Shown piece by piece: positions 561 to 42,068 of a stretch of DNA of 42,068 nt. Every line of letters begins with the position of its first letter. The first letter of the stretch is position 1. This stretch comes from Saccoglossus kowalevskii (lineage: Eukaryota > Hemichordata > Enteropneusta > Harrimaniidae). The position numbers and the translations under genes are program-made. Location: positions 111,488 through 153,555 of the forward strand of contig NW_003135357.1 in assembly GCF_000003605.2 (NCBI RefSeq), written 5' to 3'. Below the pieces are notes generated by a model. That model saw only the letters and a program-made list of their open reading frames with translations. It searched no databases and was not told the origin of the DNA.

Positions 561-1174
561 CGTGTGCACGTTGGTGTTCATTGGAAGTTGAAACTCAAAT
601 ACAATAATTAAATATAATAACAAAATAATGTCCAGTCACTGTCATTAAAATGAGATTCTAGCTTTAATTTTTATCTTATTTTCTATATGTGTTTTATTTC
701 TATTTTCAAGTTTTTTTTTTATTTGCTAGTCCTTTTGCAGGGTTTTGGTAATCGCAAATGTATATAAGATAGCTAATATATATTTAATAAAACAATAACA
801 CACCATTCCAAAATGAAAAATAGTAAAAATATAGTAAAAATAAAAATAATACAAGCTGTACAATACACTACATATTAGTGTTACCTTATGTGTGTTTATA
901 TATGACTCAAGAACATGCAACCAAAACAACAGATATTAAATTGAAAAAAATGCACCACTAATACACACTAAAATTCCAATAAATAATATTAATGGTAGGA
1001 AAAGAAATTCCATGCTACAAATTTTGACTCTCCTGATTTTGATTTGTTATCATGTTACTCCTTGTTTGAATGGTTTTATTTGACTAATTTTTTCATTGTA
1101 ACACATTTTTAAAAGCTAACAAATACATAGTATTCCAACAGTCACAATTGAGGTTAATTGATTTACATTCGTAG
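561..1174 (+). repeat. Duplicated intron segment preceding the broken exon 2
   Basis: From about 580, aligns with 31150-31762, the end of the gene A intron (shared ATAATTAAATATAAT, TATATAAGAT, CTAAAATTCC-type stretches). This is intron sequence of the relic gene. No open frame of note. Confidence 0.75.
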
Positions 1175-1400
1175 GTGCGGTAGAACATCTGGAATCACTG
1201 AAGAAATCTGGTGCAGCAGAAATAAAGATATCTTCAGAAGAAATTGATGGGATCGAGACAGACACAGCTTACGATCGTGGACATTTTTGCTTTATAAAGA
1301 TGATGGTTCCGACATTGGCCTTGGCAAATATTTAGTAATTCTGAAGAAGGTGGATGGAAAATATCGTGCCTATCTCGATATTGATAACAGTAACAATTGA
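1175..1400 (+). pseudogene. Broken exon 2 of a fourth NTF2-like gene copy
   Basis: Acceptor TTACATTCGTAG and the reading GAVEHLESLKKSGAAEIKIS, then EEIDGIETDTAYDRGH match exon 2 of gene A. The exon is 226 bases instead of 227: one base is missing near 1282-1290 (CGTGGACATTTTTGC), so the frame shifts before the KDDG motif. The DNA for the conserved C-terminus, including the ending AACAGTAACAATTGA, follows in another frame. A polyadenylation signal lies at 1408-1413. Flanks on both sides match those of gene A exon 2 (31150-32380). Exon 1 is not seen and would lie before the window. A sequencing error is the main alternative to a true pseudogene. Confidence 0.85.
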
Positions 1401-7132: not shown

Positions 7133-7350
7133 CCCAGTCTCGGTGGCTGTGATATTCGAGTTACACTTTCTAAATGTTTGTCAACATCGTGGAATGGACC
7201 TTCGTCGTGTCCATGTGTACCGTACATAAACACTGAACAGCTGGACACGAATGTAACCAGGTAATTGCTAGCAAACATCGCAACATGCCAGGGTACGCCA
7301 ATTGTTTTGAGTTGTTGGAGTTGCAATAAACACGTGTCTTTGGATGGTTG
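7133..7350 (-). pseudogene. Orphan, frameshifted copy of ZIP exon 1
   Basis: The minus strand encodes MFASNYLVTFVSSCSVFMYG THGHDEGPFHDVDKHLESV from an ATG at 7278, near-identical to the start of ZIP exon 1 (22386 downward). Just after ESV the copy lacks a net 13 bases relative to the parent, so the frame is lost before the NITATETE stretch, although the matching DNA is still there. The last 25 or so codons of the parent exon and its donor are missing. Similarity also covers about 70 bases upstream of the ATG and then stops. No further ZIP exons are visible between 1 and 7133. It is most likely a relic of a second ZIP copy rather than an exon of the intact gene, since it lies beyond that gene's 3' end. 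Confidence 0.82.
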
Positions 7351-16240: not shown

Positions 16241-16327
<87 letters not shown>

Positions 16328-19300: not shown

Positions 19301-22300
19301 GAGAATTGCTGCAACACCTATAAAAACGAAAGCAAATTGAGTGCGTTCCAGGCCATAATTGGCGGTGTGTCACAATTCGAATCTGGGTCAAGAAGTCATT
19401 TGGCGAAGGGGGGGGGGGGCTCAAGTATCACTTACAATGCAGGGATATGTAACCATCTTCTCCATAGAATTTAAATATTTCCCACAAAAAGGAATCAGTA
19501 TCTATCTTTGATGGTTCGCCAATGCAGTAACCAAACACTAGATACGACACGGTGATTGTCGACAGTTCTGCTAATTCGTAGGCATCCGCCCCGATGCTGT
19601 GATTGGCCATTGTGGATTCACTGTAGGCGCTCTTTGCTGTAAAACACTGTACATAAAACAAACTTAGCATACTGCCCTGGCTACGTGTGAATCAAAGACA
19701 GGAAGTATCCCCATATTGTGATGTATGAATCAGTTGTTAGTCCTTAGACTAAGCAGATTAAGCCCGCTACACACAATCCGACTCCACACACCCGAGCATC
19801 CATTTGAATATACACAACGTCTGCGCCCGGTTGCGTTCAGACGACTTTAGCGAATGTGTCAANNNNNNNNNNNNNNNNNNNNNNNNNNNNNNNNNNNNNN
19901 NNNNNNNNNNNNNNNNNNNNNNNNNNNNNNNNNNNNNNNNNNNNNNNNNNNNNNNNNNNNNNNNNNNNNNNNNNNNNNNNNNNNNNNNNNNNNNNNNNNN
20001 NNNNNNNNNNNNNNNNNNNNNNNNNNNNNNNNNNNNNNNNNNNNNNNNNNNNNNNNNNNNNNNNNNNNNNNNNNNNNNNNNNNNNNNNNNNNNNNNNNNN
20101 NNNNNNNNNNNNNNNNNNNNNNNNNNNNNNNNNNNNNNNNNNNNNNNNNNNNNNNNNNNNNNNNNNNNNNNNNNNNNNNNNNNNNNNNNNNNNNNNNNNN
20201 NNNNNNNNNNNNNNNNNNNNNNNNNNNNNNNNCACAGAAATACGATTAGTTGGGGTAATATTAAGCCAACCGATAACAACATTCGGTTGAAATCTTCTTT
20301 TTTTAATGGAAAATGGAAACACCTAATTATACGAAGAACATAGAACACTTTCCGGGGTATTTGAAACCGAAATTGTCATCTAACTCTAAGACCGTCGCTG
20401 ATTGGCTGCTGAGCTCGAATGACAATTTTTTGTTTCACAACATGTCTCTTATTTAGTTTTATGCAGCAATTCAAGATGGCGGCCCCCATATAGTAAATAT
20501 CGCATTTATTTTATTATCACGTGTGCGCCAGCTAACTGTGGTGTCAACATACACTGCTACGACTAAACACAACTGATTTGGATTGAAACTGTTCGCTCTC
20601 TATACTTTCTCCCAGCATGCAATATGCAAAATGGGGTTTGCTTGAGACCACTTAATGTTTTCTGAATATCATTGCAAATGAGGCGAGAAGTATGATTTAA
20701 TTTTTAAATAACCTGTGAGGTTTGTAATAATCGCCTGATACAATATACATGTATACTGTTCGCTGTTATTATAATTCGTAATTGATACCTTCAATAAAAG
20801 TTTAATCAATTAAAAATGGTAAAAATATCTATATAATTTTGTAAATAATTCTTTCTTTCCGCATCGGGGTTGTGGTGGACCACGAACTCCGTCTACACAG
20901 CACGATATCATGTAATCTGAGTATATGTAGTACTCAGGTATCAATCTTATCTAGCCATATAGCAACCATGTTTGGTTTTCTAATACAATGAATGGTATTA
21001 AGTCAATAACAGTTACTTTGTGTGTTTTATAGCATGTTCATGTAGATGAACTGAACAAATCACGTATCGCTTTAGGTTACAATATAATTGCCCGATTGTC
21101 TCCGATACTTTGATTTCCTATGACCATGAACATAAATAATATTTTTATTGCTTAGACATTAGTTTTGTCTGGGATAAGATGCATATACATTGTAGATAAA
21201 CTATTGTAGTTGAAAGACGCAGAACTGCGATGGTAAATTACATAAAAAGAAACAGTTTAAAAATCTTTTTTTTTTTGTCCGTTCTGACTTCCACTATATT
21301 GATTAAGTCACTTGTTAACTATGGCATACATGAAATACTCAGTAAACATCATCACATCCATGACTCAATATTATTCAACACGTTAATCTTTAAATCAAAA
21401 CAAATCTGAGTCCATCTCGACTAAAAACAGTGCATTTATAGTTGTAGACCAACGTACGCGTGTCAGGTCGGGCAGTGTACGACAGATTTTATACCTGCAT
21501 TTAGGTTTAATATGTAACTGTAGCTGATACACACGGTACCAGTGCGTGATTTTTTATCTGAGGTGACACGTATGTACGGCTCAAAGTTCATGCAAAATGG
21601 CTTGAGTGTAATTTTATATATTAAAGTTACCTTAGCATAGTTCGTCGCTACATACGTAGCGTTAATGTCTTCAATCACATGCTGAAATTCGTTATACGTG
21701 TGTCTGTTGGGGTCGCTGTCGCTGTCGTATCGCAGCAGTGACTGTGAGAAATAATCGTAGTCTTTTGCACTCGGATCTAATATGGTTTTGCACACGGTTC
21801 CTAAATCTGTGACATAGTACAATAGTACTACGCTTGCCTGGTGGAATTGCGGTACGTTTAAACCATATTTCATATCAGCATTAACGATGGTGAATAAACC
21901 CTCAACAGGAAGGCACTGATATGAAAGAAAATAATAACAACGATAACTAAAACATCATCGTATCTTGTGAACAAAATGGCCGCCGCATTTTAGGCTTGCA
22001 GTAATGAAAAATTTCGAAGCTGTTAACGGTCTCAAATTACATCTTATATTGAGCACTATTGTTTTAAGACGTTCCACTAAATATCACTCATCTGCAATTT
22101 AAAGTATTTTTTTCTATGTACAAACTTTTACAGTTATTGAATGTGTTACCTCTTGACATGACGTATTCGTGTTGGTAAAATCAATGGTATCACATTGCAT
22201 TCTGTTCCATAATATTCGTATAATATGCTCAGTCTCGGTGGCTGTGATATTCGCCTTGCCTTCGGGTTTTACACTTTCTAAATATTCGTCAACATCGTGG

Positions 22301-23720: not shown

Positions 23721-26448
23721 AACCAACGCTAGCTTCAATGTTCATGTCTTACCATAGCAATAGCGGGAAACATATTGCTTGTTTTTTGAGCGGAGCGGAT
23801 CTCCAACCAACCTACCGGCTTGTTTTCATTGGCAACCGAACTATTTTTATTTTGTTAACAAATTTTCGTCTGCTATTTTTATCCAGTTCAAATCGTTCAG
23901 CAACATTTTTGGCATATTAGGTGTACATCACATGGAATACTATGATTGAGAGAACTTGATGTATGTTGACTGAGTTTTATAAACCCTGAAGGATCAACCC
24001 GCAGTAAAATAAGCGATTGCCATGAAGAGCAACTATCAACATCAAAGTACCAGGAGGTTTCTGCTGGCGACGTTTCGGCGTTACCCAGTTCCAAATAAAG
24101 ATTACCATCGCCAAATGAGCAACATTTAAACCGGTAATTAGGATTAATTCAATCCACGGCTAACAAGCTACATCACAAGCGACGTTGTAGCGTGCAGCTC
24201 AGTGACGACCGCTGCGATGAAAGTCATCCCTTCAGTGGAGTACCACAGTTGCACGGCATGTTTGCCAATGCAAAATTCTGTGGAGTACTTATAACTTCAA
24301 CATAGAAATTTAAACTACGTATGACTGATTTGAAACGTTCCATCGAGATCGGACGGCGGCCCAACTGCACCCTTGAACATTGCATTCAAACGAATCTTGT
24401 GGTGTGTCGTTCCCCTTCAAACCCGGGATTCAATCAATAGGGGAGTTTCAGTAAAAAAACACATCGCTAATCATGCAAATTCACCATTTTCAAACCAGTA
24501 TACTAAAACAGAAATGCTCAGCGATGCAAAAGAAGTATAGATATTACGTTTCAGTATACACATCTCTGTTAATACTGTCCTTCACATATTCTACTCCCAA
24601 TTATTACTGCGTAAAATGGAATAGCCTCTTTCCATGTTGACATTTTGAGTAAAATCACGTGATAGGCTGTTAAAATTGGTTGTTACATAGTCTTTCGCCG
24701 GTCTGGAAAATGTGTTTAATTAGCTCTCATTCGAGCATCAATGCAGATTTCCCTGTGGGAGTGAAACTAGGTCGACTCTGCCATTAAAAAACAGGCGTGT
24801 TTTCAGCACAAAACGAATAACCCTGGAGTGCACACAGCACACTGAATTTCAGAACAAATCTTGCATTAGTTACAGCCGCAGAAAATCAGACAAAACATGA
24901 AAACACTATATATTGTATTTCGGCCTGAACCCTCTCTATTGTAATTCAGGAAATTACCCCCGTATGTGCATCCATTTTCCTCCTTGGTATCACCCACCCC
25001 TGAAAACAAACTCTTAATACCACGCTGAAGCATTTGGTAATTCCTCAGCTCCCTAGAGCGAGGTAATTTGTATTTATGTTGGTGATCGTCGCTGTGTTTG
25101 CGGAAGTACTATGGGTGATTGCATGATAGGAGTCTTTTGATCAGTAACATAATTTTAGAAAAGTGAAAACTAGAATGACGCAAAATAAAGGTTGGTTTTA
25201 AATAATAAATATCATGAAATCTGGATGAAATAATGAAAGGAAATCGAACTGGTATGAAAAGGCAGTAAATGTAGCCAGAATTCAAGGTCAGGATCCGGGG
25301 TCAAATACGCCACAATACATCCATCATAGCGGCTGCAAAGTGTCGACAACTATGGATGCGGTATTAGCCTTGATTTGCAGTTTTCGTGATTGGCCGGGGG
25401 AAAATACATGCAAAATCTGTGCTTCAGTAACAGTATTTGCTGTTTTTTTGTGCAATGGAAATTAATATAAGAAATGCTGAAAGACATTTCCTTAAAGTAA
25501 AAAAACAACTTTTGGAGTTTATGTGAAAAATTGAGAAGACGAACATCCCTTGGGACAGTCGTTCTTGTGAAACAATGGACATACTTCTCCAGGGTATCAA
25601 ATGTATTATTTGAAGTGAGAAACCGCTGCTTTATCGAGGAGCAAAGTTCAATATCATTGGAGAGAGTAATTACCCCGCACATTAATGATTGGCCTCGGCT
25701 GGTTGAAGACGTTTTTAGATGGAATGACTCCTAGAAGGATTCACCGTGACATGGACTTCTCATTCGGGTTTATACAACACTTGTCGAGACATTGTTTTTG
25801 AAATTGTCAAACAGTGAAGATACGTCATGGAGCATGATCTGATAAATAGAATCAGAGGTGGTGGCACAAAATTGTACATGCGAGATCTGCTAACAATCCC
25901 TCGCGACGAAATTTTGAATCTAGACCCTCTGAAACGCTATTTCCTGCATTTGAGGGGCAAATTTGGCTGACATACATCGCTGAGTTTAATGTCATCTCCA
26001 GGGAAAACTTACTGACCCAGGTTTGATTTTTGATTGGGGGAAGACCCCGGTGCCGCCGCCACTGAGAATAGACAGAATTTTAGGTTTAGTTTCTGTGTTT
26101 CATTGTTTCCAAGTTTTATTATTTATTGTTGTTAGTTTCTAAATTTCAGTTCTTATTGTTCATAATTATTTACAGTAATAAAACAGTTTTTCATTCTGAA
26201 ATCATTCCAGTTATTATGGTTGTGTAGATGACAGCGTTCCCCCACAAATGATGATATTATCAGGGGGAAATTCTTCTCTTCGGGGTTCTCCACATGTGCC
26301 AGGGGGGAATAGCGTCTCGTCTCTCTATCGCGTTCCCTTGAGGTACGGGGTCGGGAAAGTCACTAAATTTTACAGTCAAATAAGACACACACAACGAAAT
26401 ACGTTTCAACTCTCGTTTTAGTCGGCCAGTCAAGTACCCTATCAGTCA
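23721..26448. other. No gene recognised
   Basis: Open frames up to 110 codons (minus strand 25350-25682; plus strand 25531-25734) have no recognisable motif and no supported exon borders. Confidence 0.45.
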
Positions 26449-27511
26449 CAGCGCCCTGGGGAAAAAATCCCCAAGACTATCGCAAGGCTGAACCAAGACT
26501 CGCCCAAGACTGGACTGCCTCAAGGCTCGCCCCAGGACTCGACTCTCGACTGCGTCTATCGTGGTGTATTCGTCAAGACCAACTCAAACTCTCTTTATTC
26601 ATTTTCAAAATTCTAACCAATTACAAAGCAGTAAAAAGACTCTAGGGCGTAACCTTCAATCATAAAGCCAATCACACTAAGTACGTTCACTACATTAATA
26701 ACTATGGATACCAACTGTCAGAAGGTGTAGTCAGAATAGCGACGGTTATCTCGTAATTAGTTCTAAATCACTGAGCCAAGTTCCGTCCAAAACTTCAAAT
26801 AGGCCTAAACGATGACAGACATAACACAGCAATTCGCTAATAATCAGCTAATTAAGTCGATTAACAGATACGCAAAACAAATCCATGACACATCCCTTCA
26901 CCCAAACTGAGATTATGCCTCCCGGCATTGCACGTTCACAAATCAAAGACCGTCATCTACTCATCGTCATACGGGTTAAATACAATACTAAGAAAAGTTA
27001 TAAATCAAAAAGAGTAAAACACGCTAATTAAGTACAATGATTATAATGTCTAAATACAATGGTTATACTCTATAAAACACAGCGCCCTGGGGAAAAGTCC
27101 CCAAGACTATCGCAAGGCTGACCCAAGACTCGCCCAAGACTCTCCAGGACTGGACTGCGTCTGTCGTGCTGTACTCGCCAAGACCAACTAAAAACTCTTT
27201 ATTCATTTTCAAAATCTTAACCAATTACAAAGCAGTAAAAAGACTCTAGGGCGTAACCTTCAATCATAAAGCCAATCACACTAATCACTGAACACGTCAT
27301 ATCTTTTGGTTAATCGTTCAATATATTAATAACTACGAATACTAACTGTCAGAAATAGTAGTCCGAATAGCGACGGTTATCTCGTAATTAGTTCCAAATC
27401 ACTGAGTCGAGTTCCGTCCAAAAAATCGCATGGCCTAAACGATGCCAGACATAACACAGTCGTTCACTCGTAATCAACTAATTAATTCGATCAACAGATA
27501 CGCAAAACAAT
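26449..27511 (+). repeat. Direct repeat, 631-bp period, two copies of about 430 bp
   Basis: Copy 1 at 26449 to about 26880 and copy 2 at 27080-27511 both start CAGCGCCCTGGGGAAAA and end CAGATACGCAAAACAA, with high identity between. Copy 1 has extra CAAGGCTCGCC / CAAGACTCGCC type short repeats near 26500-26550. The 200 bases between are not repeated. No coding capacity. Confidence 0.88.
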
Positions 27512-28060
27512 TTCATCATAATATGTACGAATATGTGTGAGTATGTTTCATGGATTAATAGGCCACTCCTTTGCTTCAATTGCAACTATATCTCTGGAAA
27601 TGTGACTTGCTGTTTATCATCAGAAATTTCACAAGGCAAAGGTCAATAAAAAAATACCTTCAGCCCAAATCACTTCATTGAGAAAAACATTAATACTAAA
27701 CAGACGCATTTATGACTCAGTTTGATAACATCATCCTGTTGCTAGCCACCTGAGCCGAGAAACGTTTCATTTGTCACGCACTCAGTATTTTTGAACTCTT
27801 TTAAATAATTGAATTTCCGTGGGGGAGGTGTAATCAGCAAGAAAATACAGGCGTATATGGGTGCGCTTAGTCTCAATTTTAGTCTAGTTTTACGTCAATT
27901 TCAACACAGTCTTCCAGAACACACGTTTTTTATATAATTCACAGGATTATAGTATACTGGCAGCCTATTGGCTGACATAGATTTTTATTGAGATGTATAC
28001 TGTGAAAAAGAAATAAAATCAATCGGGCTAGCAGTTTTGGAGAAGAAGTTGAAAAAAAGC
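27512..28060. other. No gene recognised
   Basis: AT-rich, no feature seen. Confidence 0.45.
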
Positions 28061-28105
28061 ACATTGTGTGACAATACATTAACATAAAGAAAATGGTTCT
28101 ATAGT

Positions 28106-28136
<31 letters not shown>

Positions 28137-28520
28137 TCTCAAATAAAGGAAATTAGTTAGTCACTATACCATGTACTTTAACACTAAAGCAAGAGAAGAG
28201 ACATGTTGGTGAGTGTTTTATTGTTTGCAGTTTTTAAAATACTATTTTTTTGGCAAATAAAAAAAATAAAAAAACAAAGAACTGCAGACCTCCCATCTTT
28301 ATATTTTTGCGTGGGCCAGCCAAGTTACCACATACAAAAATACACATAATATTTCTATTTAATTTATTACCATATACAAACAAATTGTTTGAACACTATT
28401 TCACCTTAATATTGTATTTATTTAATATTTACATTTATTCCCGACATCACATTCAGGATCTACAACAGTAAATAAATAAACAGAAATCATTTTGATGCCA
28501 TGTTTTTATAAGACACCGTC
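28060..28520 (+). repeat. Repeat block upstream of gene A, with (AT)n
   Basis: (AT)n at 28106-28134, then sequence matching 37664-38740 upstream of gene C (shared TTAGTCACTA.ACCATGTACT, GAGACATGTTGGTGA, ACTGCAGACCTC, GGATCTACAACAGTAA). Part of the tandem duplication unit. Confidence 0.8.
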
Positions 28521-28791
28521 ATATCATTTTGATTTGCACCATACCAATTCAAGCTGCAGGGTGTCTAGACAATGACTCAACAACCAATAAAGACATCTTC
28601 CACCCACAATAAAAATTGTAAATTTGATAGGACGCAACGTAACAGTACAGTGAAATTAAAAAGGTTGTTCATTATTGGCCTGTGCCGACCATGAACAGCC
28701 CTGACACTTTATGGGCGACCTCATTGAGTTAATAGTGTGCCATTGTTGTTTTGACTATGCTGCATCAGGCGTGTCGCGGCCTGATCCCAAG

Positions 28792-28853
28792 TATTTATAA
28801 ATACCCTAGCAATTTAACTATTCCCTTGGACCGATGACGTGCCGGGTCACGTG
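28792..28853 (+). promoter_or_regulatory. Gene A conserved promoter block: TATA-like box and CACGTG E-box
   Basis: TATTTATAAA at 28792-28801 and GGGTCACGTG at 28844-28853, about 250-310 bases before the start codon. The same two elements in the same order occur before genes B and C, inside a longer conserved block (TTGCTAAATTTAT follows). CACGTG is a binding core of bHLH-zip factors such as the USF and MITF/TFE groups; which factor acts here is unknown. Confidence 0.55.
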
Positions 28854-29105
28854 CTCTACATTGCTAAATTTATTTATGCGATATCTATGACCCCCTTGAC
28901 GCGGCATGAAATCTTCAGTGCGTGTAAATGCCGTACTAACACTTGGCTGACTTGCAATGCGACATCTATCTGCCCTGCCGTCTACTAAGTTTTGAACCGT
29001 AGGTCAATGATCAAGTTATTTATCCCTGTCAGATGGATAACCTCATTATTCTCGACGTGTACAGTCCAGGGCAGTACGCAGATTTGTAAAGCATCAATTG
29101 CAACG

Positions 29106-29253
29106 ATGTCTTTATCCGAAGCCGTTTCTGCCATTAATGCAAGGTATATTGAGCTATACAAGGTGGGTGATATGAAAACCCTCGCGACGGAGCTGTACCA
29201 TGAGGACTGTAAACTGATGATGAGCGGCTTTGAACCAATAGTCGGTCAGAAAG
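29106..29253 (+). CDS. Gene A exon 1
   Basis: 49 codons plus one base, donor AAAG|GTGCGT. Start MSLSEAVSAINARY aligns with MSIKSVIEANNAR of gene B and MSTKSVIEASHAR of gene C. Confidence 0.88.
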
Positions 29254-31989
29254 GTGCGTGCCGTTCACAGTAACAAACACATGACAAACATGTGCAATTG
29301 TGGGTTACCCAAACTTTAAATTCTATCAGACAATAAGCAACATAAGTAAATATTGTATTGTATCATTGTATTGTATTATGAACGGACCGGATTTATATCT
29401 ATAGCATCTCGTTTCGTTGTTTATAGTGTATTACTTGTAAATATGTATTGTAGTTGAGAGTTACTAAAACGAAAGACGAATGACGCGGAATAACAGCATT
29501 ACATTACATTACATTACATTACAGAACGAGCCATAAACCAATTAATTATATTTGGGCTAGATATAAGCAATTAAACAATGTTTGACATTGTTTGGATCAC
29601 CGGCAGAGATAGCTGGGCAAAATGGCCGACTTCCGCCCGCGGCCATAACGAATGTATAGCATAAAAATATATTAAAACAAAATTGAATTTTGAGTTTATA
29701 TTTTTTTTCATTTTGTGTGCTTCGTAATAGACAGTTGACGTTAAAAACTTTCGATATATTATACTAGGTGTTCCATTAAAACCACACCATTAAATGCCCA
29801 ACTTGCCATAAAACCTGATGATAAATCCTATGCTGGCTCAATGTATTACCAATGGACGATGTGTATTTCCCTGTCAGGAAAATGTCGTAACGTAGGTGAC
29901 TTTTCAAGTTTGTTCGCTTCGTCTCGGATACTTTGGGGTTCAATAAACTCAGCGACGAAGCTGTAGACGCAGTATTCGCAGCTTAAATTAGCGTTGAAAT
30001 TCTTTGACTTTTTTTACACAGATGTACGATCTAATTGTGAGCATTTAACAACAGGAAGTAACATAATTCAGGATTTAATACTGATTATGTCCGTCATTCC
30101 ATGTGAAACCACCCCAATGTTCGAATGTGAACCACTATCGCCATACTGCTTTTGGTGTTAAATGTCAGACCACAAGATAAACATATGATATCGCTGTGAT
30201 AACCGGTCATTTTTCTTCTTTTTAAAAGAGGGCTTTAATCACGATGTCTGTCCGTGAGTTGTGGACTGTTCTACGACAGTCTTGACTTTTGTCTTGTAAT
30301 GCGTCAGACAAACGTATTTTGCATACCAATGATGTTCACAAGATTAGTCTGTCCACAGATTCCTTTATTAAGTATCTAGCAAGCGGCTGTTTTTAATGCG
30401 ATCTTAAGATTGTACCAAATGGTATCTCGTTCTCTGGCAACCATAACCATTTATTGGATAGCTTCATATGATCAGCTAACAAATACAAGTGGGTATAGTA
30501 CAAAGGGAACAAAATATTACCTCATTTACTATTGTTCCCTCCAATTAAACTACTCACCATAACAATATACCCTCAGTAAGCTAAACAATAGACCTTTAAC
30601 GTCCATGGCATCATCTGTTGTCTTGAATAATTTTGCATGTAATTACAGTCACTGCACTGGAATAGACAAGAAATTCCTACTTGACCAGATTCTATTCTCC
30701 ATTTCCGTCAATGAAAAATCACTGAAGTTATTTTTTACATATTACTGATTACTGGGAAAAGAAGATTAATAACATCAACACCAACGATGCCGACATACAA
30801 AAGTTCCCTAATAGACCTCAACCTTCATTACAATTACGTCAAGGCAAAAAAGATCGACAAATGTTTGTCTGAGTGTTTTAGAGTCGCTCTCTTTTGTTCA
30901 TTCCACACTTATTGTGAAGTTGTGCGAGTTTACATACTAATAATACTGATGTTCACGAATAGTGTGCTAAGGAAAACATAAAGAAACTATCACAATCTTG
31001 CCATTAAATAATGAATGAGAATAGTAGATGTGCGTCATTAAATGCCAATGATTTAACATTAACATATTCTTTTCTAAATAAATTTCATCTAGTTACGAGA
31101 GCTGAAAGTGATGATGGTACATGTGATTTTTCTGATGCATGTTAGTGTTCATTCAAGTTTAAATTTTAATATAATAATTAAATATAATGACAAAATATAC
31201 TGAATCTTGAAAAAGGTAGTTTCTGTCCAGACACTGTTATTAAAATGAGTTTCTAGCCTAGGCTTTAATTTTTATTTTATTTCTATATGCGTTTTTTTTT
31301 TATTCTATAGTTTGTTTTTATTATTTGCTGGTAGTTATGCAGGGTTTAGATAATCACAAAGGTATATAAGATGTATATATATGTATGTGTGTATGTATGT
31401 ATGATGTATATAAAATGTTTATATATGGCTAAACAACTTGCACACAAAACAAAGGGTACTCAATTGAAAAAGAGTACCGCCAATAAACACTAAAATCCTA
31501 ATACATAATAACAATGGTAGGTAGAGAAATCTTTATTCTAAGTGGCGATGGTGTTCAAAACTGGCGATTATGACGGTAGTCAGTCAGTAACATAAACATA
31601 TCCATGCTAGCAAGTTTGCTCTTCTGCTTTTGATTTGTTGTCATGTTACTCCTTGTGTTTTTATTTGACAAATTGTGATAATTTTTTCATTGTAACGTAT
31701 TTTTTAAAAGCTACATAGTATTCCTAAAGACACAATTGATCTTAATTGATTTACATTTGTAGGCGTGGTAGAAAGACTGGACGCAATGCAGAGAACTGGT
31801 GCATCGGAATTAAAGTTGACTTCAGAAGAAATTGATGGGATCGAGACAGACACAGCTTACTGTCGTGGAAGTTATGTGTTTTATAAAGATGATGGTTCAG
31901 AGATGACCGTTGGCAAATATCTGTTAATCTTGAAGAAGGTGGATGGAAAATATCGTATCTATCTCGATATTGATAACAGTAACAATTGA
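29106..31989 (+). CDS. NTF2-like (DUF4440/SnoaL-like) small protein, gene A (2 exons)
   Basis: Exons 29106-29253 and 31763-31989, joined in phase 1 (AAA G|GC), give 124 residues. The pattern fits the DUF4440 branch of the NTF2-like fold: an N-terminal helix (AINARYIELYKVGDMKTLA), then LYHEDCKLM, the loop GQKG, and a C-terminal sheet with DDGSEMTVGKYLLILKKVDG and YLDIDNSNN. Members of this fold are small single-domain proteins, some of them enzymes or ligand binders; no reaction can be assigned here. No signal peptide or membrane segment with this start. An in-frame ATG at 29007 would add 33 residues that look like a mitochondrial targeting peptide (basic, Ser/Thr-rich), but genes B and C have no such ATG, so 29106 is preferred. 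AATAAA signals at 32046 and 32062. Confidence 0.88.
29254..31762 (+). other. Gene A intron
   Basis: 2509 bases. Holds a repeat fragment shared with 455-560, an (ACATT)n microsatellite at about 29497-29521, a block near 30955-31080 shared with the gene B intron (36385-36490), and an end shared with the relic gene (580-1174). Confidence 0.6.
31763..31989 (+). CDS. Gene A exon 2
   Basis: 227 bases, acceptor TTACATTTGTAG, stop TGA at 31987-31989. Begins GVVERLDAMQRTGASELKL. Same length as gene B exon 2; the relic at 1175-1400 is one base shorter. Confidence 0.9.
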
Positions 31990-32803
31990 GTACAAATTTG
32001 AAATCAAGTCGAATTGAATGGTGTCCTCTGAACCAACAGATGTAAAATAAACCATTTGTACAATAAAAAAACTGCTCTGTGTTAGTTTCAGTTTTTGATT
32101 CCCACGAAGACTATCACACAGAATTACCGGACAATTCGTATCGGCGGTACCAAATCATCCGGCAAGGTCGAACATTGGTCAGATAAACAGACTGTGTTAT
32201 TTTCAAGACAATCTCGATTTCTGGTGGGAACTGCATTTTTAAAAAAAAACTATTTGTAGTTCCTAATTGCTAAATTGCATTGCTTCTAAGTGTTTGTGAT
32301 TACCGTGTAGCTGTAAATATCCATTTTAAGGGGTATCGTGATACTTTTCCTGTTGCCCAAGATCAAAGCTGGACTAACCTATATATATATAAGCCCACTT
32401 ATAGGTGTGTCATTCTGATTTTGTCAGTTTAAACAATACCAACCTGTTGTCTACTCTTTGCAGGTGCTATTGTAATTTTATTCAAATTCGGGGTAAAAAT
32501 AGTATTGACAAATTGCACGACTATTGTGTTGAAATGGAAGGTTAATGTGATTATCAGTAAAATATAGATCAGTATCCTCAACAAAAGAGGAAGAATAATT
32601 GACTATTTTACGACAAATCAACAGATTAAGACAGCTTCTTTACACTTTACACTAACGCAACGTCACAATCCAGTGAAATTTAAAAGGTTGTTCGGTCTAT
32701 GCCGACCATGCGCAGCCCTGCACTTTATGTGCCGACTTCATACAGCGTCCCGTTGTTCATTCCATTATATTAGGCTGCATAAGGATTGTCGCGGCCCCAG
32801 CTC

Positions 32804-32859
32804 TATATATTTGTAAACACGCATGTTGGCTTGATCTGATGGCGTGACTGGGTCACGTG
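32804..32859 (+). promoter_or_regulatory. Gene B conserved promoter block
   Basis: TATATATTTGTAAA near 32804-32817 and GGGTCACGTG at 32850-32859, aligned with the gene A block. CTTGATCTGATG just before the E-box is shared with gene C. Confidence 0.55.
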
Positions 32860-32997
32860 CTCATCGTTGCTAAATTTATCTACGCGGCCTCTGTGACCCC
32901 GTAAGTTAATGATATCATTGTCGATTGTGCGACGTCATTGAATCAACGTGTCCAGACTAGGGTAGTACGTTATATTTACAAGCAACACACCTCTACG

Positions 32998-33145
32998 ATG
33001 TCTATAAAATCGGTCATTGAAGCCAATAATGCACGGTTTGGAGAGATGTACAAGGCTGGGGATATGAAAGCCCTAGCGACGGAGCTGTATCACGAAGATT
33101 GTAAATTCATGCCCAGTGGCTCTGAGACTAAGATAGGTCAGAAAG
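32998..33145 (+). CDS. Gene B exon 1
   Basis: 49 codons plus one base, donor AAAG|GTTGGT. The frame stays open upstream to about 32905 but holds no ATG, so the start is the ATG at 32998. Confidence 0.9.
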
Positions 33146-36100
33146 GTTGGTGCCGTCTCCATTAACAAACACATAAAACATGTGCACACGTGGGCGGGTC
33201 AAAATCCCAATCTCGAACGAGAGCATGCAACATGTTGTTCAAATATAATTGTATTCGTGAATGTATGTATGTTTATTGCCGTTTCTATTGCTAGTCGCTC
33301 GGTTCTGTGTTTTACCCGTACTAGCATGGATTAATGCACATGAGGTAAAAAGATCGGCCGAGTCTTCGTCGTCCTCGTCGTTAAATGTTTGTTGTGTTTA
33401 CAATACCGGGTTGACTACCTTCGCAATAGGCCACATATTAGCAGTGTGCCACCAATTCTTCCATACCCCTATACTGCTTGCCATACAGTCATCATTTTTC
33501 GTTCACTGGGAGATCCCGCGTTATGCGTGAATTCGAACTTAAAAACAGGACAAACAAAGATCGTAGCGTCGTGGTGGCGACAAACATGGCGTGGGATTCG
33601 ACAAACACGAAAGTATTTTGGGGGATATTTCCATGTACAGTAATGGTATCCAAACGCAACATTCCCCTGTCAAAGATCGGTCTTTCAAAGTGAGCTTCGA
33701 AATAATATAAAAGTTCGAAATCGAATCAATTTTTGCGGTCGGACGTTCGGCGCGCGTCTTTCACGCAACTCGCGAGATCTCGCAGTTGAACAGAAAATCA
33801 CTTATTCTAAACTGATACCCATATTTATTATATAAGGATATTTATTATATTTTATTGAGTTGAAAGCATGCCTACTGTATTACCAGGTCTAACACTACTG
33901 ACCTATGCCAGCCTTGACTCACACATGATGTCAAGTCCACATTACAATAACTAAACTACAGTGATGAAATGAAAGATAAAGAATATCATAGTGTGAAAAG
34001 AATTGCATCTTATTCATTGACTGGTTGGGTTACATACGGTATTTCCAAATATACTAAACTCAGTAATATGTCCCTAACATGGCCCTTGTTACATGATGAT
34101 TAGTTATGTTATATGTCATATTTATAATAATAGCTTACAAATCACCGGTAAATCATATTTTTCTTCCAATTTTTTTTTCAGCTGATTGATGAATATTCAA
34201 ATTAATTATGACCAATCACGGCTATTGCATAATAATGCAGATTAAGCGTTATTACATTTACGATGACACAGTATTTATCCTTTTTGAGTGCTTTGATATT
34301 TATCATTGAAAACACAAATTATACAAATGTCTACTTTGATACGGAAATTTCATGCAGATTGGTGACCCCTCCCCCTGCTGCATACACACGTTTATATATA
34401 GTTTAGCTCGACATTATGACACTATGAATTCTCAAAAAAAAATACATTAATATATTCACAACTCCTATAATATTGATAAAAAAATCACCTAAGTGAAATT
34501 AATACAGCAGTACACGGGGAAGTGTATGGTTGAGGGAATGGTTGGGGTAAATAGTGTTTGTATCGTAGAGGAAGAGAACTGTACATTAAATTGATAATAT
34601 TGTGTTTATCATATCGGCATACTTATTAACTTCCAAACTTAATAATCCACTACTTCTTTCACGAACATGGTGTTTTTTTAATTGGACTCATGTTTTGCCG
34701 GCTGTTACAATTTTAAAGTGTTTTCCTAGCATATGCAGGTTCAAATCGAACAAGGTACACATCGAGAGCACTTGTTGAGGAACAACAATATGATGTATCC
34801 GACAGGAAAAGCTGAAAATTACTTGACTAACCTCAAATAATAAATTTCCTATTTATAATTTTGAACTCATACCGTTCGTTCCAGTGCTGTTACATAAGCG
34901 AAAATTTGTTGAGAAATGTTAGGTTGATAAAAAATTGAATATTAACAAAATGTTGCGATTGTTATTACTAGTACTACTGTGAAATATCAGTTTCCGAAAT
35001 TAAAACGGGGAACCATAATACATTGTTTTGATTTTCTTTTAGCAAACAAAGTCCGTTGACGAAGCCACATAAATTGTTCACACATGTTCAAGTGGAGACA
35101 TTTCCTCTCATGATATTTTAATATTTGAACTAATTTTGATTTATTTTATTTGGGCCAGGCAGGCCTAGCACTGACATACAGCGAGTACTCGCTGGAAGTC
35201 TCGGTCAGTACTCGTACTTAGTGAATGACGACCTGGTTGTACAAACAACGGCTTTGTGTTTTGTACAGGGTACAGTACAAGTACACTACAGTAAAGTTCA
35301 GCGTGATACCAGTTACAGTACAACGATCATTTACCCATGCTCGCGTTCTTCGGAAATCTAAAAATAGACTACCTTGAGAAAGTCACGTGATTTATCTTCT
35401 GAGCATGCGTAGTGGATTCAAATATTTGTGTGGTGTTTTGAAGAGGAAACTGTTTCTCGGTACTTCACTCGAAAGGTATACATGCATGCCAGGTACATTT
35501 ATTCGTGATATATGCTCTTTGAATATCACAAAATAATAAATATTAAATTCGAATGTACATAATTTAAGACATTTCCCAATCCATGCTTTTTATTTTCTGA
35601 GCTAACATCCCTAGCCACACCCACACACACACACACGTACACATACAGATCTTACTATCGTTGTGACGCCACACATTGGATTAACTTTGAATATAGTTGA
35701 ATTAACTTTTAATATAGTTGCGATATGAACTCGATTAAAACGCGTTCCTATATAGGCTGCGTTTTAATTGGAGTTTGATTAATTAAACTCAATTACAATG
35801 CAATACAACGTAGAATTGCGTTTCAATTAAGTTTAATTAAATAAACGTTGAATATCCCGTGACTGAACATAGAAATAGTTGCGAAGCTTAGATTTAGTAT
35901 CGGGGGGGGGAGGGGTATGGTACAATTATATTAATATAAACTGAACCATACCTTCCCCTGATACTAAACCTAAGCTTCGCTAAGTTGACTTAAATTCGAT
36001 TAAATATTAATATAAATTATGAAAATAGTCAACAAAGTAAAAGGATCTCACTATTCACTGACGGGCTTCACTTTGTGGGTATGTGTCCATGGATTTGGCA

Positions 36101-37131
36101 TCACTTGGATAGAAAGACATGACTACCCCACACACAAGTAGCGCATAGTATTCTGGGTAGTATCGCTCGTCCCCTTGATCAAACACGATACACTCGTACA
36201 TATCCCCCCACGCGATGTTTAATTTGCATGTGTCCAGAAATTGTTTTGTTTTGTTTTTTTATACGTCAATTGTAACTTTTGCATGTTGTGTAAATGTATA
36301 TAATTCATTTGCAGGATATACCAAACATTTTTAGTGTCTATGTTATGGGAGTGTACATAACAATATTAACGATTTATCGAATTGTGCGCAGAGGAAAACA
36401 TAACGAGAGTATCACAATCTTGCTATTAAATAATGATTGAGAATTTTGGATGTGCATTATTATACTCTAATGAACTTAACATTAATTACTCGAACATGCT
36501 AATTGTACGAAGACTTGGCTAACCTCTATTAACTACTTTAAACTTAGTTTGTGTTGCTCATTTCAACTTTACTTACAAAAGCCAAAATGGAGAATTGATA
36601 ATAAAATATTAGTTTGCCATTCATTGGTGGATGCTCAAATATGATATGAAACATGAAAGCACATCTAGATGTATTAAATTAAATGTGACCTCGCAATGCT
36701 AACGTCCCTGGTAAGCAGATAGTTATTTAAATGGTAGCCGTGTTCACCCTACTCCCTTTTATGACAATCGCCAATCATTAATAAGTAAAACCAAGATAGT
36801 GTTGTTTTCATCTTTATTGTTTGAATTTGTTTGGCGCACCATGTAGTACCTCATTTAAAGACAAAAATTGTTTATTTATGACGTAAAGTAATTTACCTTT
36901 TTAGATGTGGCAAAAGAACTGGAAGGAATGAAGGCGGCAGGTATATCGGGAATGAAGTTGACTGCGGAAGAAATTGGTGGGATTGAGAACGACACAGCTT
37001 ACGATCGTGGACAGTACTTTCTTTATAAAGATGATGGCTCCGAGATGGGCGTTGGAAAATATCTGGTGATCTGGAAGAAAGTGGATGGAAAATATCGTGT
37101 TTATCTCGATATTTTTAACAGTAACAATTGA
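32998..37131 (+). CDS. NTF2-like (DUF4440/SnoaL-like) small protein, gene B (2 exons)
   Basis: Exons 32998-33145 and 36905-37131, phase 1 junction (AAA G|AT), 124 residues, same length as gene A. Key stretches: MSIKSVIEANNARFGEMYKA, ELYHEDCKFMPSGSE, KIGQKGDVAKELEGM, DRGQYFLYKDDGSEM, VGKYLVIWKKVDGKYRVY. WKK and the final DIFNSNN fit the typical DUF4440 C-terminus. Splice sites are AAAG|GTTGGT and CTTTTTAG|AT. The intron is 3759 bases and shares blocks with the introns of A and C. Two polyadenylation signals lie at 37185-37190 and 37387-37392; the second is shared with gene C. This is the best-preserved copy. Function unknown. Confidence 0.9.
35690..35870. repeat. AT-rich palindromic cluster
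   Basis: GATTAAAACGC at about 35732 pairs with GCGTTTTAATTG at about 35759, and AATTAAACTCAATT pairs with AATTAAGTTTAATT downstream. Several nested inverted repeats based on CAATTAAAACGCA-like words. Confidence 0.55.
35881..35980. repeat. 100-bp hairpin
   Basis: GCGAAGCTTAGATTTAGTAT (35881-35900), then a G-run and GTATGGT, is inverted as ACCATACC..CCCCTGATAC and CTAAGCTTCGC ending at 35980. Arms are about 36 bases with an AT-rich loop. In the gene B intron; may be a foldback element. Confidence 0.8.
36905..37131 (+). CDS. Gene B exon 2
   Basis: 227 bases, acceptor CTTTTTAG, stop TGA at 37129-37131; encodes DVAKELEGMKAAGISGMKL and onward to IFNSNN. Confidence 0.9.
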
Positions 37132-37392
37132 ATACTAATTAAGAATTAAGTCAAATTCAATGGATTCCTCTGAAATCACAGTAAAATAAACCATTTGTCC
37201 AATATTGAATACTGTTTCGGTTTTTGAATTCCATGTGTAAAGCACACAGTGGGAATCAGTGTTGTTACCCTGTCTGTGTGTTTTGGTACAAACTCAAAGC
37301 TAGAATGGCCGATATTCTTACCTTGGTGTTTGCTTGCGTGTGCGTTCGTTTGTCTGTCTGTTTTTCCCCCAGCATAGACCGATTTCAATAAA

Positions 37393-37660
37393 ACTTGTTT
37401 ACTGAGACGGAGTAAAAATCTATAAGCCTGGCGTTGGGGTGTTCTGATTGGATCAAATATACTATAATCCTGATATCACCACTGACGGACAAGGAATGGT
37501 AGTGCGGATAGGTTATTCAGTTAACAGTACTGTGCACAGGCAAGTCTAGTGCAAGATTTTATGCGATCATAAGAATGGAAATATGTGAGAAAAAGCTTTG
37601 ACGGTAAATTTGACAAAACATTCGCGATTCGTGCATGTATATAAAGCGTACCAGCTTAGG

Positions 37661-37704
<44 letters not shown>

Positions 37705-38985
37705 GAACCTTCCCCAAATAAAAGAAATTCTTTTATTTCAAAAAATAAGAATTAGTCACTAAACCATGTACTTTCACACACAAACAAGAGATGGGATGTG
37801 AGACATGTTGGTGAATTAGTGTTTTATTGTTTACAGTCTTAAAAACATCAGTTTTTTCACAAATAAAAATGAAAAAAAAAACTGCAGACCTCACATTATT
37901 ATATTTTTGAATGGGCTAGCCAAGTCTTCACATTCAAAAATACACATACTATTTCTATTTAATTTATTTTATTTTATTATATAATATTTTCATTGAATTC
38001 TCAAATTTGCTATACAATTTGATCAGTATTTCGCTTGATTTCATTGGATTCATATATTCACCAAAATGTGCATATAGTTGCATCAAGTGAGAGGTAGACC
38101 AGTAACAAATAATAGTGATAGAGGGAGAAGGAAAGAAGGGACGGAGGACATGGCATATTTGACAATCACTTGAGCCGATGCCAATACACTTGGATAAAAT
38201 CTGCTTTTCAAAATTGAAAATGAACAAATGACCACAAAATACATTAAAATACACCATCTCAAACGCCCGGGCTATGACATTAAAAGGTCCACCCCCAACT
38301 AAGGTCGTGAGTGTGAACAATACTTTACTGTTACCATATACCATAGTAATTTGTTGGACACTATTCCATCTTTATATTTACAATAATTATCCTTGTATTT
38401 AAATCTGTTTCAAGACATTTGAGGGATTTGCTTTAGAACAAAGCAATGGTGATGGCACGGGTGGGAGCTCTAGGAAATAGCGTTGCAGAGGGTCTAGATT
38501 TTAAAATTGAGCAGATCTCGTCCCCATGCAAAATTACGTGCCGCCGCCTCTGCAAAACAATACAAGGAGGAGATTTTGGTGTCAAAATTTGCTCCCAATT
38601 CAAATTCAAATATTGCCAGCAATAATTAATAAATCTTGTTCAGCATATCATTTATTCCTCGATATCATATTTGTTGGCTAGTTATCTGGATCTACAACAG
38701 TAATAAATAAACAAATCATTTTGAAACCATGTTTTTTAAGACACGCCCCCCCCCCCTCCAGGGCCTATATTGATAATTTGATATCGAGACGATATTAAGT
38801 CACTGCAAATTTGTTGCAGATTAGAAGAAACGCAACGCAAAAATTCAAAAGTTTAAGGGCTTGTTTATTTTCGTTCTCTATCATGCATAACACAAGCACT
38901 TTGAGCACCGAATTTACTTATTTAAACGTGGAGCGTTGTTCTTTCGAGTACACTGCATAATGTTTGTCGCCGCTAGAGCTTTATG
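37393..38985 (+). repeat. Intergenic region between B and C: second copy of the upstream repeat block, split by insertions
   Basis: (AT)n at 37664-37701, then matches to 28135-28370 up to about 37975. About 360 extra bases (37980-38340) and about 290 extra bases (38405-38690) interrupt it before it resumes to about 38745. No gene; the 126-codon minus-strand frame at 37964-38344 lies in the first extra segment and is unrecognised. Confidence 0.7.
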
Positions 38986-39047
38986 TATTTATAAACGTCG
39001 AACTACTCAACTGTTCCCTTGATCTGATGATGTTACCGGGTCACATG
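38986..39047 (+). promoter_or_regulatory. Gene C promoter block with degraded E-box
   Basis: TATTTATAAA at 38986-38995. The aligned E-box reads GGGTCACATG (39038-39047): one change breaks the CACGTG palindrome. The spacing to the TATA-like box (52 bases) is the same as in gene A. Confidence 0.5.
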
Positions 39048-39179
39048 ATTTACATTGCTGAATATACGTATCCGTTCTCTATTGAGTGTTGACTCGTGGG
39101 TCAAAGATATCTTTGTGGACAGTGTTTCAACAATTAACGACACCATTGCAAGCCAGATTTACAGCAAGACACTTCTACC

Positions 39180-39318
39180 ATGTCTACGAAATCGGTCATT
39201 GAAGCCAGTCATGCAAGGTGTGCTGAGTTGTACAATGCTGGTGACATGCAAGCTTTAGTGACGGAGATGTACCACGAAGATTGTAAATTTATGCCGAGTG
39301 GCTCTGAGACGAGGTTTG
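39180..39318 (+). CDS. Gene C exon 1 (3' end uncertain)
   Basis: 46 codons plus one base if the weak donor G|GTCATG is used. Without splicing the frame runs on to a stop at 39431. Confidence 0.6.
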
Positions 39319-41457
39319 GTCATGATAGCATGCAATATGCAGCTTGTTCATCAAATAAAATTGTCCCCGTGAACGTATGTATGATTTTGCCGTTCCTATT
39401 GCAGCTTGGTTCCGTGTTTTACCCGTACTAGCGTGGATTAATGCACATGGGGTAAAAAGGGCAACAGAGTCTTCGTCGTCCTCGTCGTTAAATGTGTGTT
39501 CTGTTTACAATACCGGGGTCACTACCTTCCTTATGGGCCACATATTAGCAGTATTGGCAAGATAGCATGCAACATATAGTGTTCGTCAAATATAAATGTA
39601 TTCGTGAATGGATGCTTGTCTATACAGTATCTATTGCATCTACAAGCTAGGTTAAAGTACATGAGGTATAAAGGTTGACCGACTCCTCGTCGTCCTCGCT
39701 GTTAAATGTGTGGTGTTGTTGTTACACTGCCAAAGTGACTAGTGCTAGGCAACAAAGCAACAGTGTGCCACCAGTTCTTCCATACCGCTACCCTTAGCCA
39801 GACAGTCTAAACTAAACTAAATTATTATTTGTTTAAATTAAATATGCAAATAATCACGGCCATTGATAATTATTACATATCAGATAACACAGCTTTCACC
39901 ACTGTGGGTGGTCTGATTTTGCAAACACAAATACGAAATATAGCTGCAAGCAGCGATTAACGGCTTTCGATGTAATGCCTGAGTTAGCACACAATTGCAT
40001 TTATGCAACATAGTTATGATATTACACTATATCGAGGATAATGGAGACATGTACTGTGATCAGTTTAGTATATAATGTGGGGAAATGTGCTGTTATGATA
40101 AATTGGTGACAGTATATGTGAACCATGACCAGTTCACTATATTGGGACCAGTCTATCCGGCTTTCAAATCACGTAAAGAGCCATAATACCATAGAATTTG
40201 AAAAAAATATTTCATTTGTGCAAACTATATACATGTAGCTTACACGATGGTCTTATCCAATGCCTTCAATGTAGCGTTATTTCCATGTCTCCAACTTCAA
40301 TGGTGCTCTAGATATTATAGATATGTTAATATGTTATTTCTCTTGTCCAATGTCTTCAATATAGTGTTAGTTCCATGTTTGTACATGCAATAGTGTCTGA
40401 GATATTAGGGATATGCATATATTGCTATGATAATTTGTATGTTGATAAGAATTGTAGTTCCCTCAGTAAACTACCATGGCTGTGACTAAGAAAATGCTCA
40501 TAACAATAACCATGGCAAATCGCTAATATATCATGATATAGTATATGAACTTATTTATTATGGCTCATTACCCCAATACAAGTGCGCTTCCACTATATGT
40601 TAAAAGAAATTATTGCAATAATAATACACAATTTAGGAAAAATATTATATATGTGTAATTGTTATAGAAAATGTCAACTCAACTGAGCTGAGCGGTTACA
40701 TGCAAATTTTTAGCATAACGTGAAATAGAGCAATTAATTCTCAACAGCTAGTTTCAATACATACAACCAGAATCATTACTGGCAATAGAATAGATAACAA
40801 TTCAGCGTGATGCGATTTACGATAGAACGACCATTCCCCACATTCTCGACCTATCAAATACTCGCGTTCACCGGGAATCTCAAAATAGAGAGCTTAGAAA
40901 AGTCAAGTGATATCTCTCCTGAGCATGCGTAGTCATTCATAACGGTAGTTGCAAATGAAAACGCTTCTCGACATTACACTCAGAACATACATATATAAAT
41001 AAATACGATAAATGTGATAAATATTCTCTGAATATTACACAGACACAAATGATTGAATTCAAGTTTACATAATGCCACGTTCCTGCAGTTTATTTCCTAA
41101 GCAAAGACCCCGATATAAATTAGCAGGTAGTGTCCGGGTAATATAATATTCAAAAAGGATGTGCAACTTCATTCGAGACAACAAATAGCTTATTCAAAAA
41201 TACAAGTTGTCGTAATTTTTACCTTTTTATGTGTGATAGAAGGATTTGAATCAATGAAGAAAACAGGTGTAGCGAAAGTAAAGATCACTTCGGAAGGAAT
41301 TGATGGGTTCGAGACTGACACAGATTACGATCGTGGAAATTACATTCTTTCTAAAGATGATGGTTCCGAGATGGATGTCGGCAAATATCTAGTGATCTGG
41401 AAGAAAGTGAATGGAAAATATCGTGTCCATATCGATATTTTGAACAGTAACATTTGA
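39180..41457 (+). CDS. NTF2-like (DUF4440/SnoaL-like) gene C, with altered splice sites; possibly decaying
   Basis: Exon 1 starts at 39180 (MSTKSVIEASHARCAELYNA, ELVTEMYHEDCKFMPSGSE-like as in gene B). The exon 1 end and donor found in A and B (CAGAAAG|GT) are deleted: after GGTCA the sequence jumps to material that lies deeper in the gene B intron. A weak in-phase donor remains nine bases upstream (TTTG|GTCATG at 39318). At exon 2 the usual acceptor TTTTAG is TTTTAT, but a new AG nine bases downstream (GTGATAG|AAGG, exon from 41240) keeps the phase. Using both gives a 118-residue protein lacking six residues at the junction loop. Exon 2 is open to TGA at 41457 with KDDGSEMDVGKYLVIWKKVN. It may be functional or an early pseudogene; RNA would decide. 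Confidence 0.68.
39319..41239 (+). other. Gene C intron
   Basis: Starts with two tandem copies (39340-39560, 39560-39810) of the block found once in the gene B intron, each with GTCGTCCTCG. From 40800 it aligns with 35300 onward. Nothing else recognised. Confidence 0.6.
41240..41457 (+). CDS. Gene C exon 2
   Basis: Acceptor GTGTGATAG; 218 bases against 227 in A and B. Encodes GFESMKKTGVAKVKITSEGI and ends DILNSNI. Polyadenylation signal AATAAA at 41601-41606, in the same context as in gene B (ATCAATAAAACTTGTTTAC against TTCAATAAAACTTGTTTAC). Confidence 0.72.
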
Positions 41458-41969
41458 CGTATTTTGATATGTACAAAGCACATAATTGCAGTCCTTGTTA
41501 CCCTGTCTGTGTGTTTTGGTTCACATCGGCCATTATTATTCCTGTTTGGTTTGTGTACCTCTTTGTTTCAACCACTTTTCCCCTATCACAAACTGATATC
41601 AATAAAACTTGTTTACCGTGACACAATATATTTACGTTGTAGTGCGGCGCACAACATGATTGCTAAGCGACCAATGACGACCTGACATGGCCAACAAAAC
41701 CAAACTCTTCTTCAACATTATGTGTAGAATTGGTTCTAAATTGTTGTCTCCAGGTTGAAATCTGTACATATTAATTACATATTAATGAAATCCTCCACCC
41801 CTCTCAATACACCCTACAACACTAATAGTCCCCATACTCATTTACATGTTTGTACAACAAACTTAGCAAATAGATGCATCAAACTTTTGACCAACCACTC
41901 ATCCTAATTATTGGTGGGTGAGGGCGCCATTTACTAATGAAAAGCCAGTCACACTGGTTCGCACTACTG

Positions 41970-41972
41970 GAG

Positions 41973-42068
<96 letters not shown>
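41970..42068. repeat. (AT)n microsatellite at window end
   Basis: At least 94 bases of AT repeat from 41975 to the last base; it may continue beyond. Confidence 0.98.

Follow-up and report, generated by a model that had tools for sequence, protein, structure and literature searches.

A probable tandem birth-and-death cluster of small two-exon DUF4440 genes in Saccoglossus kowalevskii

Gene copies and family membership

The window analysed here is a stretch of 42,068 nucleotides from the hemichordate Saccoglossus kowalevskii (positions 111488-153555 of the 290,886-base contig NW_003135357.1), and it very probably holds part of a cluster of small tandem genes evolving by birth and death, each with two exons and coding for a protein of about 14 kDa whose single domain is DUF4440 (NTF2-like clan). 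Copies A and B are intact, the relic R is frameshifted, C is without its ancestral splice sites, and exon 2 would have passed between copies by gene conversion. The cluster copies (Z, R with an exon 1 linked to it, A, B, C and D) lie in one orientation on one contig, and the cluster extends beyond both window ends. Outside the window, where positions are given in contig coordinates, Z (98770-98917 and 100837-101063) and D (159459-159606 and 161484-161710) are also intact, and in all four intact copies a phase-1 intron separates exons of 148 and 227 nt. Such clustered, duplication-related paralogs, intact ones beside pseudogenes, are what birth-and-death evolution describes, as had been proposed in a sequence-only reading of this DNA. 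That reading also counted three plus-strand two-exon copies; A and B agree with it in their identical exon lengths and intron phase, and C was rejected as an ordinary two-exon copy, with its exon-1 end and donor deleted and AT in place of the acceptor AG at 41229-41230.

The joined A and B proteins have 124 residues each, with the phase-1 intron at the identical codon. Compared with PF14534 (DUF4440; curated cut-off 25.2 bits), joined A scored 37.3 bits and joined B 35.4 bits, covering the whole domain (residues 9-115 of A on model positions 3-107 of 107, and 7-115 of B on 1-107), which bears out the DUF4440/NTF2-like identity first suggested from the letters. Exon 2 alone fell below the cut-off (A 22.5, B 20.6 bits) and exon 1 alone gave no PF14534 match, so the gain in score on joining the exons supports the splicing of A and B. 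The donors of A and B scored 5.0 and 1.9 bits (99.7th and 97.5th percentile of the GT sites in the window) on a donor matrix. A tblastn search of the window with exon 2 of A found B at E 6e-31, C at 4e-28 and R at 5e-25, values that exclude chance similarity.

The S. kowalevskii assembly (572 Mb, 4,830 contigs) was searched with proteins of the family, and the reading of this contig for family exons covered all but 12,392 bases. Protein A matched at least 14 places, all on this contig. A diverged relative, E, matched at least 11 places, 4 of them on three other contigs, and another, F, lies on this same contig. A phase-1 intron at the corresponding position has been kept in five distant genes: E and F here, T on contig C4724, and the tandem genes M1 and M2 on C3164. 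The PF14534 cut-off is exceeded by A, B, D, E, T and M1; Z (19.1 bits) and F (19.5 bits) stay below it, which counts against assigning every copy to the family. The PF14534 model gave no match in the six-frame genome with all 4 of 4 candidates scored, exons being scored apart. Further candidate family pieces are an exon 1 at 245.7 kb of this contig and one match on C3161. M1 and M2 (C3164:1-5200), diverged DUF4440 genes that are nearly identical to each other, stem from a far more recent duplication away from this contig.

Bacterial relatives were found outside this genome. Eleven records of bacterial plasmid proteins named SgcJ/EcaC or DUF4440 (Bradyrhizobium, Sinorhizobium, Mesorhizobium, Microvirga, Deinococcus and others) showed 28-35% identity over 87-100% of B, and a scan of bacterial genomes yielded one relative from 141 pattern matches, a Mangrovibacterium locus with 32% identity. 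No relative was found among 35 pattern matches in viral contigs, no NCBIfam family reached its cut-off for A or B, and Rfam gave no match in the window. Among animals, an excerpt of a report on Anisakis simplex larvae describes an abundant DUF4440 protein of 13,671 Da (PMC7407331), like the present ones a small animal protein of this family by its description; the excerpt mentions no tandem cluster for it. In the DUF4440 literature searched, as far as its excerpts go, no tandem animal DUF4440 cluster was found described, and a literature search combined with Branchiostoma gave no match. DUF4440 is rarely named in the literature searched, and the present inventory, with its gene structures, can therefore serve as a basis for testing expression and binding.

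The copies also share sequence outside their exons, in line with the first reading. The upstream blocks of A and B are 70% alike and recur before C, shared intron blocks were found for R-A, B-C and A-B, and similarity at the 3' ends links R to A (80 of 92 aligned nt) and C to B (48 of 66). The change of CACGTG to CACATG was discarded as a mark of decay in C, since intact D also has CACATG. Farther upstream, A and C have sequence in common (28100-28516 and 37666-38744) that was not seen before B, where the 3' flank of A lies instead.

Table 1. Cluster features in the window (window positions; a slash marks the exon boundary at a splice site)
Feature	Position	Strand	Details
Copy A exon 1	29106..29253	+	148 nt, donor AAG/GTGCGT
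Copy A exon 2	31763..31989	+	227 nt with stop, acceptor TTTGTAG/GC; AATAAA at 32046, 32062
Copy B exon 1	32998..33145	+	148 nt, donor AAG/GTTGGT
Copy B exon 2	36905..37131	+	227 nt with stop, acceptor TTTTTAG/AT; AATAAA at 37185
Copy C exon 1 remnant	39180..39321	+	ancestral exon end and donor deleted (aligned with A, B)
Copy C exon 2 remnant	41231..41457	+	open frame, ancestral acceptor AG changed to AT, proximal poly(A) segment deleted
Relic R exon 2	1175..1400	+	one-base frameshift; acceptor kept
A upstream block, CACGTG word	28632..28894	+	self-BLAST match to 32655-32900
B upstream block, CACGTG word	32655..32900	+	self-BLAST match to A block
C upstream block, CACATG word	38936..39088	+	38936-39082 matches A 28743-28888 (self-BLAST)
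A intron block	30919..31062	+	79% match to B intron 36342-36485
B intron block	33225..33445	+	85% match to C 39337-39552
R intron blocks	565..1008	+	565-770 matches A intron 31136-31372; 893-1008 matches 31416-31530

Selection on intact copies and decay of R and C

The ratio of nonsynonymous to synonymous divergence (dN/dS) was calculated by the Nei-Gojobori method on joined exons, with Fisher p values. The ratio was 0.41 for A-B (p 0.0008), 0.39 for A-D (p 0.0003) and 0.29 for B-D (p 1e-5), indicating that joined A, B and D are under purifying selection. Pairs with C gave 0.49 for A-C (p 0.007), 0.49 for B-C (p 0.01) and 0.33 for C-D (p 0.001), and pairs with Z gave 0.54 for Z-B (p 0.01), 0.57 for Z-C (p 0.03) and 0.48 for Z-D (p 0.004). 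Two results weigh against selection throughout the cluster: it was not detected in Z-A (joined dN/dS 0.87, p 0.75), and exon 2 alone was significant at 0.05 in only 2 of the 10 pairs of Z, A, B, C and D (B-D and C-D). The comparison of A, B and C, which had been put forward as a check, thus showed constraint in the joined exons of all three pairs and no significant constraint in exon 2 alone. Repeated retention had been read as a hint of a dose-related or lineage-specific function; that of A, B and D is consistent with ordinary purifying selection, and the sequence analysis gave no support for a role that depends on dose or for the suggested tie to secondary metabolism.

The broken exon of the sequence-only reading is real, a 226-nt exon 2 that is one base short, so that its frame breaks after 36 codons; it had been counted within 29106-41457 and lies far to the left of that interval (Table 1), so its placement there was dropped. 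Compared with exon 2 of A, R showed a dS of 0.17 and a dN of 0.17. Left of the window, an exon 1 at contig 105449-105587 is 79-85% identical to Z and A in the exon and first intron bases, and it is probably the first exon of R, about 7 kb upstream. It has lost 18 nt, an A precedes its donor GT, its upstream sequence aligned to the other copies no better than 30-46%, and no further family exon was found between it and exon 2 of R.

In copy C, the alignment with A and B showed that the last exon-1 bases, the donor and the intron start are absent and that the acceptor AG has become AT. C also lacks the proximal AATAAA that A and B have at 32046 and 37185; its distal AATAAA at 41601 corresponds to the second one of B, at 37387. 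Its sister D keeps donor, acceptor and AATAAA. B had been taken as the nearest relative of C, and this was abandoned for the 5' sequence and exons once D was included: C is closest to D in the proximal upstream sequence (81% vs 59% for B), exon 1 (92% vs 83%) and exon 2 (89% vs 80%), and nearer to B in the 3' flank (73% vs 44% for D). With B as outgroup, 11 nonsynonymous and 4 synonymous changes fell on the C branch and 8 and 11 on the D branch (4 sites left unassigned); with A as outgroup, the counts were 11:5 and 6:9 (7 unassigned), where the neutral ratio is about 3.95.

As judged from these sequence changes, loss of function of C is probable, not proven, because both of its frames are open and a cryptic join is in frame. 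It is unlikely that C has diverged and still functions by splicing at new sites, for example by a phase-1 join of TTG/GTCATG to GATAG/AA giving 118 residues, and several points nevertheless speak for this and against decay. Neither C exon is interrupted by a stop, C keeps 31 of the 42 residues common to B and the solved protein 3hx8 (see below), equal to A, and the difference between the C and D branches fell short of significance with either outgroup (p 0.09 for B, 0.16 for A). The C-D ratio of 0.33 points the same way, although it is partly due to constraint on the D side and to the time before C decayed. On the other hand, the cryptic donor scored -4.3 bits on the same matrix (58th percentile of window GT sites), far from the donors of A and B; C alters 7 of the 31 residues common to A, B and 3hx8; and it keeps only 24 of the 36 residues common to A and 3hx8, of which B keeps 31.

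Histories of exon 1 and exon 2

The exon 1 tree was ((Z,A),(B,(C,D))) with support of 98-100, and its deep split between {Z, A} and {B, C, D} was found in the proximal 5' sequence, exon 1 and the intron tail, and hardly in exon 2. Sites favoring this split were counted against those favoring the two alternatives (141 columns in exon 1, 222 in exon 2), and these quartet sites are not independent. For Z, A versus B, D the counts were 21:1:1 in exon 1 and 3:2:2 in exon 2 (Fisher p 5e-7); for Z, A versus C, D they were 30:1:0 and 6:6:0 (p 2e-8); and for Z, A versus B, C they were 19:0:1 and 5:0:7 (p 4e-5). Elsewhere, the quartet Z, A versus C, D gave 20:0:1 of 90 columns in the 130 nt upstream, 22:0:0 of 79 in the intron tail before exon 2, and 2:3:1 of 40 in the 3' untranslated region (UTR).

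Synonymous divergence showed the same pattern. Between the subgroups it fell from 0.98-1.47 in exon 1 to 0.20-0.40 in exon 2, and within them exon 2 exceeded exon 1 for Z-A (0.31 vs 0.19) and C-D (0.26 vs 0.23). A model with proportional branch lengths in both exons was worse by a doubled log-likelihood difference of 34.3; the maximum in 100 simulations was 15.9, and none of them reached the observed value. These statistics showed that the history of exon 2 differs from that of exon 1. Stepwise duplication, as first proposed, accounts for the proximal 5' sequence, exon 1 and the introns and is too simple for exon 2, which is not proportional to the same tree. In this compact tandem family, frameshift and splice-site loss tell dead copies from intact ones, and the exons of a single gene do not share one history.

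Here the similarity of one segment between paralogs exceeds what its flanking sequence allows, as expected of concerted evolution. Ectopic gene conversion would have carried exon 2 and the proximal 3' UTR between the two subgroups, and the tract may have been limited there because the introns no longer share homology. Three results stand against this explanation. The approximately unbiased test on exon 2 alone rejected none of five trees, exon-1-like trees included, so that it is branch lengths and site patterns, rather than a competing topology, that show the conflict. The distal upstream sequence (-480 to -131) is also without the split (Z, A versus C, D 3:4:2 of 140, with Z poorly aligned; A-B 76% alike). 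Synonymous divergence in exon 2 was moreover below that of exon 1 inside one subgroup, for B-C (0.27 vs 0.55) and B-D (0.46 vs 0.73).

The last of these would also be expected if exon 2 were simply more constrained than exon 1, so that paralogs of different subgroups look equally close in the absence of any conversion, and the cross-subgroup similar blocks do stop near the exon and poly(A)-signal boundaries, as constraint alone predicts. We regard this as quite improbable, because in 4 of 4 within-subgroup pairs exon 2 was the less similar exon (exon 2 vs exon 1 identity: Z-A 77 vs 84%, B-C 80 vs 83%, B-D 79 vs 82%, C-D 89 vs 92%). Only between subgroups is exon 2 the more alike, as in A-B (79% vs 71%), and the between-subgroup gap in synonymous divergence and the rejection of proportional branch lengths argue against constraint as well.

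Those same boundaries resemble the limits of an mRNA. A cDNA donor would also explain such tract limits and is not needed for conversion. It seems very improbable that a 5'-truncated cDNA recombined with the genes and so homogenised one mRNA-shaped block, made up of exon 2 and the 3' UTR as far as the poly(A) signal; such recombination would leave a tract from the splice acceptor to near the poly(A) signal and the introns intact. Conversion between the genes themselves is the explanation we prefer.

Predicted function and neighbouring sequence

The nearest solved protein was PDB 3hx8, which we take to be a bacterial protein and which is itself named only as a putative ketosteroid isomerase. 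It matched residues 2-123 of A (E 3.6e-7), with 36 of 120 identities to A and 42 of 120 to B and the stretch GKY...DI.NS in common, and this match predicts an NTF2-like fold, a cone-shaped alpha+beta structure. A profile including 3hx8 next found 3d9r, 3h51 and iota-carbonic anhydrase, all weakly (E 9e-5 to 0.007). By analogy, the proteins might be cytosolic NTF2-like homodimers with a cone-shaped pocket for a small apolar ligand.

Ketosteroid isomerase uses a catalytic Asp40 together with Tyr16. Exon 1 of A aligned with ketosteroid isomerases weakly (best E 0.06-0.1), with its Tyr14 at isomerase position 16; this, and the enzyme names borne by the nearest solved and annotated relatives, speak for enzymes of ketosteroid-isomerase-like, SgcJ/EcaC-like or polyketide-cyclase-like type, which we consider possible and rather doubtful. 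The same weak alignment places Met39 of A at position 40 (Pro in B, Thr in D, Leu in Z); none of Z, B and D has an acid at 38-39, and their residue 14 is Phe, Phe and Cys, respectively, rather than Tyr. Neither A nor B reached the cut-off of the SgcJ/EcaC family TIGR02246 (33.95 bits; B 18.4, A not listed), in contrast to the naming of the bacterial plasmid proteins. An alignment of 11 proteins, comprising 3hx8, the Mangrovibacterium protein and 9 from this genome (of which two are near-identical), left D34, G47 and N121 as the only invariant residues, and no His was among them. Because the isomerase Asp is not kept, invariant residues are few and His is absent from them, binding proteins are favored over ketosteroid-isomerase-like enzymes, with about an even chance of being right.

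Between R and A, pieces of a ZIP zinc-transporter gene (PF02535 and ZIP4-domain matches) were found on the minus strand at 11345-21873. Upstream of these pieces, the segment 22194-22387 recurs at 7096-7279 with 77% identity; judged by its reading frame, it may be an early exon of the ZIP gene, in which case this gene, too, may be partly duplicated. At 26435-26886 and 27066-27516 lie direct copies of about 450 bp, 79% alike and about 630 bases apart. Minus-strand frames at 9487-10166 look by their motif like a remnant of a retrotransposon endonuclease, and the one frame examined there, 9487-9843, gave no Pfam match. A repeat at 100-455 in the R intron has an inverted copy at 16693-16992, with self-complementary parts at 355-456 and 16697-16794, and looks like a small DNA transposon. 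The window ends in a 94-base AT microsatellite (41975-42068).

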